From: an uncultured Spirochaetota bacterium
GTDB taxonomy: Bacteria; Spirochaetota; Spirochaetia; Treponematales; Rectinemataceae
Length of the DNA: 45,502 nt
Reading direction: 5' to 3'
Assembly: GCA_903821875.1 (NCBI GenBank)
Contig: CAIJMU010000008.1
Coordinates: 1 to 45,502, forward strand
In this document: positions 10,663 to 12,670 of the stretch, piece by piece
Layout: every line of letters begins with the position of its first letter
How positions within the stretch are numbered: position 1 is the first letter of the stretch
Made by a program: the position numbers and the translations under genes
Notes under the pieces: generated by a model
What the model was told of the DNA's origin: nothing
Databases searched by the model: none
The model's input: the letters and a program-made list of their open reading frames with translations, nothing else

Positions 10663-11346
10663 CTACCTGAGCTTGTCAAAGGCGGCGAGCAACTTGACCG
10701 ATCCCCGGGAGATCTCGAGGACTCCGCGCTGCTCGAGGTCCTTGAGGATGCGGCTGACAACCTCGCGGGAGCTGCCCACATGATCGGCCAGCTCCTGGTG
10801 GGTCGTGATGACGAGGCCTGTGGAGGAGCTCATTTCGGCCAGGGCCTGGATAAGGCGTTCGTCCACCTTCCTGAAGGCTATCTCCTCGACGAGCTCGATG
10901 ACTTCCGCGATCCGCTTCGTGTACTGCGAGCTTACAAAGTCTCGGAAGGAGGGACCCTCATTGAGGAGCCGCCTGATAGTGGTACTCGGGATGAAGGCAG
11001 CCAGTGTTTTTTGCTCAGCAACCACCGCTGCGGGAAAGTAATCGATGCCCTTGCCGCAGCCGAGGCTCAGGATGCAGCTCTGTCCAGGCTCAATGCGGTA
11101 CAGGGTAATCTCCCGGCCACTCTCCGAAGTCTTGTACACCCGGATAGAGCCGTCGAGCACAAAGGGTACGGCCGAACAGACCTGTCCCTCTCGCAGGATC
11201 ATGGTTCCTTCATCCAGAGTCTTGTAACTCAGGGATTCAAGGATCGCTTCGAGTTTTATTGAAGGCCACTCATCCTTGGGAAGGAAGGCGCCAAAGATAG
11301 ACAAGAAAGTCTCTCGGGATCCTTCTCGAACTGCCAGGGTCATCAT
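10663..11346 (-). CDS. Crp/Fnr-family transcriptional regulator
   Basis: A Crp/Fnr-type regulator of 227 residues from the MM start at 11346; an alternative start at 11418 would overlap the rhodanese gene and gives a non-family N-terminus. The cyclic-nucleotide-binding-like sensor domain (about residues 20-130) has LDEGTMILREGQ and LDGSIRVYK. Several cysteines (GQVC, GQSCILSLGC) could make it a redox or metal-cluster sensor. A long helix is followed by the winged helix with HQELADHVGSSREVVSRIL as recognition element. FNR-like N-terminal cluster cysteines are absent. It lies 44 bases after the rhodanese gene and probably controls this redox/sulfur module. Confidence 0.85.
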   Translation of the reverse strand: MMTLAVREGSRETFLSIFGAFLPKDEWPSIKLEAILESLSYKTLDEGTMILREGQVCSAVPFVLDGSIRVYKTSESGREITLYRIEPGQSCILSLGCGKGIDYFPAAVVAEQKTLAAFIPSTTIRRLLNEGPSFRDFVSSQYTKRIAEVIELVEEIAFRKVDERLIQALAEMSSSTGLVITTHQELADHVGSSREVVSRILKDLEQRGVLEISRGSVKLLAAFDKLR

Positions 11347-11390
11347 GTTCACATCATAGCCTTTGTACCCGACCCTGCGAAGGCTGGCGG

Positions 11391-11777
11391 CTACTTGGTC
11401 GCCAGGGTTCCCCTCCACTTCGTGAAGGCACCAAAGTCGGAGACATTCGTGAATCCCAGCCCCATAAGAGTAGTCCTGGCTATGCCCGAGCGGCGCCCGG
11501 AACGGCAGTAGACGACGATGGGACGGCCCTTGTCGGCTTCCTTGAACCTGGTGGCGATCTCGTCGTAGGGCAGGAGGAGCGCGCCGGGAATGTAACCTTC
11601 GGCAAATTCTTCCTGCGTCCGGACATCGAGGAGGAGGGGCTTGGCTTCCTTGTTGGCGAGGAGGGTGATCAAGCCCTTTTCATCCAGGAGGGGGGGCAGG
11701 GCTGGAACCTTGGGGCCTGCGCCAATCGAGAAGAGGCCGAGCAGCAAGAAAACAGTGGTATAAAGTGACTTTCGCAT
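11391..11777 (-). CDS. Exported single-domain rhodanese
   Basis: From the ATG at 11777 this is a 128-residue protein with a Sec signal peptide (MRKSLYTTVFLLLGLFSIGA) and one rhodanese domain: LLLDVRTQEEFAEGYIPGALLLPY, then the active-site loop VVYCRSGRRSGIA. The catalytic cysteine is in CRSGRRS, so it can bind sulfane sulfur or cyanide-type acceptors in the periplasm. The start lacks a good ribosome site; a longer in-frame start (to 11882) would add a non-signal N-terminus and is less likely. It is 101 bases downstream of the DUF2202 gene and probably in the same sigma-54-type operon. Confidence 0.8.
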   Translation of the reverse strand: MRKSLYTTVFLLLGLFSIGAGPKVPALPPLLDEKGLITLLANKEAKPLLLDVRTQEEFAEGYIPGALLLPYDEIATRFKEADKGRPIVVYCRSGRRSGIARTTLMGLGFTNVSDFGAFTKWRGTLATK

Positions 11778-11791
11778 ATTAGGAAATATGC
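11774..11791. promoter_or_regulatory. Perfect 7-4-7 palindrome at the rhodanese start
   Basis: GCATATT-AGGA-AATATGC is a perfect palindrome with a 4-base spacer, the spacing used by Crp/Fnr-family dimers, although the half-site differs from the FNR consensus. It overlaps the chosen rhodanese start codon (11775-11777). The adjacent Crp/Fnr gene makes autoregulation a reasonable guess. Confidence 0.4.
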
Positions 11792-11878
11792 ATATTACAG
11801 CCTGGCCTGACAAGGCCCCTTCAGTCGAATTCATTAGCATGGCATGTCGCAGCCTGTCGCCCTTGAAGCTGGTCCAGC

Positions 11879-12391
11879 TCATGGCGAAAGGCCTTTCCGG
11901 AAGGCTGCAAGGTGGTTCTTCGAGGCATCCCGAAGCTTGGTAAAGAGGCCACGGAGGCTCGCGTTGGAGGGCTGGAGGAGGAGGGGGTTGGAGAGAAAGC
12001 TGTCGTACATGGCAATATTGTCCAGCTCAGCCCCGACGCCCGCCTCCAGGGAAGCCCTGAGCCCGACTGGAACAGTAACAAAGGACGCTGCCCTGTCCGC
12101 TGGCAGCGGGAGGCTTGCCGCCGCAAAGGCATCGATAAGCCATGAAATGTGGTTGCGTTCCGTGAGAATGATGTTTGAAAAGGGTCGCACAGAACCGAGG
12201 CTAGCGAGAATCGCCGCGTACTCAGCCTGGGCCAGATACTCATCCTCGATGGCATAGCGCAGCATCTCGTCGAGGGTCTGGTCCTTGTCAGCCTTCGCGG
12301 CCTGGGCGCCCCAGGCTGCGGGGCTGTTGGCAGCGAAGAGTATGGTCGCTGAGAGGAGGAGGGCGGCGAAAATGGAAAAAAGGCGATTCAT
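11879..12391 (-). CDS. Exported DUF2202 ferritin-like protein
   Basis: A 170-residue exported protein with a Sec signal peptide (cleavage near AWGAQA, residue ~29) and a DUF2202/ferritin-like helical domain. Helices contain EDEYLAQAEYAAIL, RPFSNIILTERNHISWL and GAELDNIAMYD, giving a Glu/His pattern suitable for a di-metal site. No lipobox is present, unlike the relative at the left edge of the window. CCAGGAGGAAC directly before the ATG at 12391 is a strong ribosome site. It is the first gene of an operon with a rhodanese, a Crp/Fnr regulator and a methyltransferase, and is preceded by a sigma-54-type promoter. The biochemical role is unknown; metal or peroxide handling is possible. Confidence 0.82.
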   Translation of the reverse strand: MNRLFSIFAALLLSATILFAANSPAAWGAQAAKADKDQTLDEMLRYAIEDEYLAQAEYAAILASLGSVRPFSNIILTERNHISWLIDAFAAASLPLPADRAASFVTVPVGLRASLEAGVGAELDNIAMYDSFLSNPLLLQPSNASLRGLFTKLRDASKNHLAAFRKGLSP

Positions 12392-12445
12392 GATGTTCCT
12401 CCTGGAACGCGGCCGACTATTGATATCAGGCAGCAGCTAGGTAAA

Positions 12446-12461
12446 TGCAGCTATCGTGCCA
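12446..12461 (-). promoter_or_regulatory. Sigma-54-type -24/-12 promoter for DUF2202-rhodanese operon
   Basis: On the minus strand TTGGCACG-N4-CTGCA matches the RpoN consensus (yTGGCACG-N4-TTGCw) with one mismatch, and the GG-N10-GC spacing is exact. It lies about 55 bases upstream of the DUF2202 ATG, giving a leader of roughly 45 bases. Confidence 0.6.
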
Positions 12462-12602
12462 AGCGCAGGATTGGTCCCCTATGACGATATTTTTATCTCC
12501 AATGGGAATATATTTCTCGTTCTGGGTCTTCATCCTTGCTCTATACTACTCAATACCCTGGCGATTGGGTAATTATTTCTCCAAACAGGCGCTCGGTTAG
12601 GT

Positions 12603-12618
12603 TGGCATGCAAACTGCT
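12603..12618 (+). promoter_or_regulatory. Sigma-54-type -24/-12 promoter for NapH-like gene
   Basis: TTGGCATG-N4-CTGCT on the plus strand has the exact GG-N10-GC spacing of an RpoN promoter and resembles the facing element at 12446-12461, including the CTGC -12 box. It is about 53 bases upstream of the ATG at 12671. The ~140 bases between the two elements would hold activator sites; TACCC-N8-GGGTA (12554-12571) is one candidate. Confidence 0.55.
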
Positions 12619-12670
12619 ATATATTTTCGGAATTGCCTTCTATTTCGCATACCTATAGAGGAGAACTGAC

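Follow-up and report, generated by a model that had tools for sequence, protein, structure and literature searches.

Results

Two divergent sigma-54 boxes

How is a pair of divergent genes of obscure role controlled from the short gap between them? The window analysed here, a 45,502-nucleotide contig of an uncultured Spirochaetota bacterium, contains such a pair, coding for a DUF2202-type ferritin-like protein and a NapH-like membrane ferredoxin and separated by the gap at 12392–12670 (Table 1). A first-pass annotation had proposed that mirrored sigma-54 promoters in this gap place both genes, together with a rhodanese and a Crp/Fnr regulator gene, under joint RpoN control as a redox/sulfur module.

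Table 1. Features of the divergent locus and the candidate activator.
Feature	Position	Strand	Remarks
Crp/Fnr-family regulator	10663..11418	-	PF00027 and PF13545
Rhodanese	11391..11882	-	PF00581; ORF start 11882, more likely start 11777
DUF2202-type ferritin-like protein, 170 aa	11879..12391	-	N-terminal signal-like segment; weak Rubrerythrin match
Sigma-54 -24/-12 box, DUF2202 gene	12446..12462	-	TTGGCACGATAGCTGCA = TTGGCACG-ATAG-CTGCA; expected start ~12435
Candidate shared enhancer 1	12504..12518		GGGAATATATTTCTC; palindrome search and regulon-wide conservation
Candidate shared enhancer 2	12567..12581		GGGTAATTATTTCTC; 63 bp (~six helical turns) from enhancer 1
Sigma-54 -24/-12 box, NapH-like gene	12602..12618	+	TTGGCATGCAAACTGCT = TTGGCATG-CAAA-CTGCT; expected start ~12629
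NapH-like membrane ferredoxin, 513 aa	12671..14212	+	Fer4_5 and Fer4 domains; extra C-terminal region
Candidate activator, receiver-AAA-Fis (NtrC-type) response regulator	G000:C153:9974-11464		Palindrome and box at own operon

Sigma-54 promoters, whose transcription depends on RpoN and an AAA+ activator, carry GG at -24 and GC at -12, 10 bp apart, near the consensus TGGCAC-N5-TTGCW. The gap contains two 17-bp boxes, one on each strand, with exact GG-N10-GC spacing. One has a single mismatch and the other two mismatches to TGGCACN5TTGCW; the -12 element of both reads CTGC instead of TTGC, which counts against them. As annotated earlier, they lie about 55 bases from the start codons: 54 nt on the minus strand (ATG 12391) and 52 nt on the plus strand (ATG 12671), each ATG being preceded by a Shine-Dalgarno-like sequence. 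The promoters had been described as facing each other. The boxes actually point away from each other, and the arrangement is divergent, back to back.

Each box taken alone is only moderately significant, and the sequence by itself is insufficient for the claim. With up to two mismatches, TGGCACNNNNNTTGCW gives 21 matches in the window against 20.6 expected, so that the relaxed matches stand at background; across the 4.68 Mb of the genome, the strict pattern YTGGCAYRNNNNYTGCW is matched 18 times and its reversed-pattern control 10 times. Two of these 18 strict matches form a divergent pair within one gap; from the strict genome count, the number of divergent pairs no more than 200 bp apart that chance would produce is estimated at about 0.003. 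The pair is well beyond chance because the boxes are conserved upstream of orthologues and palindromes lie between them.

The first-pass annotation had named a lack of rpoN as evidence against its reading. That objection falls away: the genome carries one copy of rpoN, along with genes for about 15 full sigma-54 activators. Since rpoN is present in 30 of the 30 genomes of the family, its absence cannot be used as a negative control.

Conservation of the boxes

Boxes of this kind also precede orthologues of both genes in relatives. The NapH-like orthologues are 51–66% identical, and strong boxes lie directly upstream of three of them (L042 at -58, L051 at -40, L014 at -78). For others (L040, L044–L048, L050, L057, G011, G012) the box precedes a short operon ending in napH, and in most such operons the first gene is a small SHOCT gene. 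DUF2202 orthologues are preceded by perfect or near-perfect boxes in G006, G012, G026, G027 and G028, and by a weaker one in G009. No comparable box was found upstream of the orthologues in genus g11, G004 and G013, which indicates that sigma-54 control of these orthologues is not universal.

For the ferritin-like protein, the DUF2202 name is probable and comes from its orthologues: no Pfam family scores above the cut-off with the protein itself, but orthologues 42–47% identical to it reach 31 and 28 bits with PF09968 against a cut-off of 22. The plus-strand protein shares with NapH and CcoG membrane ferredoxins the Fer4_5 membrane domain and the 4Fe-4S motifs, yet it lies below every equivalog cut-off, including those for NapH proper (TIGR02163, 85 of 213 bits; NF007013, 77 of 234 bits), and has the additional C-terminal region. 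Its gene is followed on the plus strand by a Uma2-family gene (putative restriction endonuclease, PF05685; 14307–14909).

A palindrome as candidate shared enhancer

The stretch between the two boxes carries a 15-bp palindrome twice; its consensus, GRGNAAWWWTTNCYC, was set by eye from seven relatives. Upstream enhancers of sigma-54 promoters are located at about 80–150 bp. The window palindromes agree with a conserved enhancer in this range, the far copy lying 93 bp (plus promoter) or 113 bp (minus promoter) from the GG element, measured from the centre; each promoter also has a near copy, at 30 or 50 bp. A relaxed form of the motif occurs at only seven sites in the 4.68 Mb genome, two of them here. 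Simple NtrC, NifA, NorR, CRP and FNR motifs are absent from the gap.

In relatives, the palindrome recurs upstream of the regulon boxes, often paired about 20 bp apart. A score of at least 13/15 is reached at 21 of 26 further regulon promoters, and all 11 unrelated sigma-54 promoters in the window's own genome fall short of it (Fisher 5e-6), the set of 26 being nearly, not wholly, independent, as its member L237 was found via a palindrome search; dinucleotide shuffles reach this score in 1% of cases. In the reverse direction, the family has 42 strict palindromes, of which 10 are accompanied by a strong box that points outward and lies no more than about 230 bp away; for random positions the figure is 1.4% (P 3e-10). 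A good palindrome is missing despite the box at the G012 DUF2202 promoter and at L048. GGGG/CCCC-flanked palindromes in several genomes have no nearby sigma-54 box and are probably unrelated. Weak palindromes near a GAF-type activator on C85 were rejected, as they lie inside the open frame of that activator.

Box and palindrome together mark further genes. In the window's own genome these are a SHOCT membrane protein gene, alone on contig C127, and a paralogue coding for a second NapH-like protein (C63), both of which are likely members of the regulon. In relatives, they mark genes for NapH-like, SHOCT and DUF2202 proteins, for small secreted proteins (in G007, G011 and G012) and, in G001, for a secreted protein of 254 aa. 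Two exporter operons are marked as well, one for an ABC exporter in G028 and one of MacAB-TolC-like type in G011, the exporter names being taken from reading of the sequences.

The window's own genome has other sigma-54 boxes. Five without the palindrome (L104, L096, L099, L100, L103) precede genes for an Hsp20-like protein, three related lipoprotein-like secreted proteins and one further secreted protein, and probably belong to the regulons of other activators. Another box (L092; G000:C52:31541-31557, minus) directly precedes a gene whose product is a sigma factor of the sigma-70 family (regions 1.2 to 4), an arrangement that echoes the Borrelia RpoN-RpoS cascade. A perfect box, TTGGCACGGAAATTGCT (L091/L142; G000:C37:1581-1597, minus), precedes a 16S rRNA gene by about 250 bp; this is unexpected for an rRNA operon and could be due to chance or to a misbinned rRNA contig.

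The candidate activator

The 15 activator loci of this genome (about 155 kb) were read, and a palindrome scoring at least 13 was found only at C153. There, GGGAACAATTTTCCC lies 144 bp upstream of the sigma-54 box TTGGCACAGATCGTGCT, which precedes an operon for a Met/Gly-rich secreted protein, a histidine kinase and the receiver-AAA-Fis regulator. At E 0.1, the 159-aa secreted protein matches no Pfam family. With this palindrome and a sigma-54 box at its own operon, the system is predicted to be autoregulated. In G025 (G025:C103) the genes of the homologous activator and secreted protein diverge from two sigma-54 boxes that flank palindromes, which repeats the mirrored layout of the window. A related activator in G011 (clade support 0.99) is encoded at the end of an exporter operon that carries box and palindrome.

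The activator clade follows the regulon across the genomes compared. Its recognition helix, LGI[ST]RRTLLNK (LGISRRTLFNK in G024), is present in the regulon-bearing genomes examined and in G008, and only distant matches to the clade occur in G004, G005, G013 and genus g11. No clade activator was detected in the regulon genomes G002 and G006, both of which are fragmented assemblies. In many relatives the clade activator has neither a kinase nor a palindrome at its own gene, and for this reason its role there is a presumed one. The kinase-less form repeatedly adjoins MEMO-type- and AMMECR1-type-like genes (G028:C21, G012:C107, G010:C3, G026:C100, G011:C83, G001:C345).

The minus-strand neighbours

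The minus transcript may continue beyond the DUF2202 gene. The likely rhodanese start lies about 100 nt after the DUF2202 stop, and a sigma-70-like site, of a kind no more frequent than chance, is located upstream of it at 11813–11785. In relatives, the Crp/Fnr gene is a neighbour at most, and it is absent from many regulon-bearing genomes. Of the four genes proposed to be under joint RpoN control, such control is well supported by comparison with relatives for the DUF2202 and NapH-like genes; a place on the same minus transcript is only plausible for rhodanese, with its own sigma-70-like site, and for Crp/Fnr. A perfect palindrome, AATATGCATATT, also lies around 11780–11795 upstream of the likely rhodanese start and is a possible Crp/Fnr operator.

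The wider regulon comprises membrane ferredoxin, ferritin-like, SHOCT and Met/Gly-rich secreted proteins and ABC exporters. The label of a sulfur module was abandoned, since the other members have no link to sulfur. About 2 kb beyond the Crp/Fnr gene lies a gene for a DsrE2-like protein (PF13686; 7857–8363, minus), for which no link to the regulon was seen.

Discussion

The gap is best read as a divergent sigma-54 control region. RpoN holoenzyme would wait in closed complex at both -24/-12 boxes, and a phosphorylated NtrC-family activator would bind both palindromes and open both promoters by DNA looping. The NapH-like ferredoxin and the DUF2202 protein would then be induced together, and rhodanese and Crp/Fnr might be induced along with the latter. 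The likeliest activator is the C153 response regulator, and that the two promoters share enhancers and are driven by its autoregulated, ZraPSR-like two-component system is, in our judgement, very probable. The sequences, their spacing, their conservation and the co-occurrence of the elements are direct observations; binding, activation and the extent of the operons are inferred from them, as is the signal.

Other readings of the gap were weighed. The boxes could be accidental, with ordinary sigma-70 promoters driving both genes; the background level of relaxed matches and a genome-wide excess under twofold would fit this, but the conservation across genera and the palindromes would not, and no sigma-70-like site was reported in the gap, which makes chance a very improbable explanation. 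The palindromes could instead be read by the adjacent Crp/Fnr regulator, which would then control the divergent pair. Its gene adjoins the locus in the window and lies near napH or DUF2202 in G012. Nevertheless, a clear orthologue is absent from G001, G003, G006, G007 and G026, and only distant matches (23–28% identity) occur in G027, G028 and G029, all of which have box and palindrome; with so many palindrome-bearing genomes lacking a clear orthologue, this protein is an unlikely reader. The gap also lacks the Crp/Fnr consensus, and the palindromes are positioned as is typical of enhancers. This possibility is largely refuted and retains hardly any weight.

More credence, though still little, is due to real sigma-54 promoters with shared enhancers that are read by some other activator, such as the AtoC-type (C29) or GAF-type (C92) regulator. 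Both have reciprocal best hits in all regulon genomes compared (G003, G006, G007, G010, G012, G026, G028), including G006, in which the C153 clade was not found. However, no box plus palindrome was seen in G021, which has both types, or in G004, which has the C29 type, and neither locus has a palindrome of its own. This alternative is considered unlikely.

The closest analogue of the C153 system is ZraPSR, a system that responds to zinc and envelope stress. In Escherichia coli and Salmonella, divergent sigma-54 promoters serve a small periplasmic protein and the system's own two-component genes, with autoregulation (PMC4987338); the ZraR enhancer is stated there as not known. An NtrC-type regulator with its kinase, a small secreted partner, divergent sigma-54 promoters and, as predicted for the C153 system, autoregulation are common to both systems, and the layout of receiver-AAA-Fis regulator, histidine kinase, small secreted protein and sigma-54 box is seen at C153 and at G025:C103. 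Unlike ZraP, the secreted partner at C153 has no Pfam match, and the system, although it would operate in a similar way, is therefore not filed as ZraPSR. The regulon would also be larger, adding membrane ferredoxin, ferritin-like, SHOCT and exporter genes, whereas the direct ZraR targets in E. coli are only zraP, zraSR and mgtA (PMC7657598).

Among spirochaetes, to our knowledge, sigma-54 regulation has been described chiefly in Borrelia and, of late, in Leptospira. The Borrelia Rrp2-RpoN-RpoS pathway represents sigma-54 control in a spirochaete via an NtrC-type response regulator (PMC3037356, PMC2940757), and this much is shared with the present system. The target genes differ, and the present system has a candidate palindromic enhancer with many target promoters.

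The Met-rich stretches of the kinase and of the secreted protein, the ferritin-like protein, the NapH/CcoG-like ferredoxin and the exporters suggest envelope metal or redox stress as the signal. A more specific proposal is tentative and has less than even chances: a spirochaete-specific response to envelope metal or redox stress, possibly copper, in which an autoregulated NtrC-type system with a Met-rich kinase loop and a Met/Gly-rich secreted partner might direct, via a defined enhancer, a NapH/CcoG-like membrane reductase, a secreted ferritin-like protein, SHOCT proteins and ABC exporters.

A limited literature search brought up no account of this regulon or of its enhancer. The type of promoter and activator is itself known; the sigma-54 regulon is apparently undescribed. 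It comes with a promoter, an enhancer sequence, targets and a named candidate activator, and is conserved across many genera. Proteins of obscure role, namely DUF2202, NapH-like, SHOCT and Met/Gly-rich secreted proteins, thereby become testable as one response.
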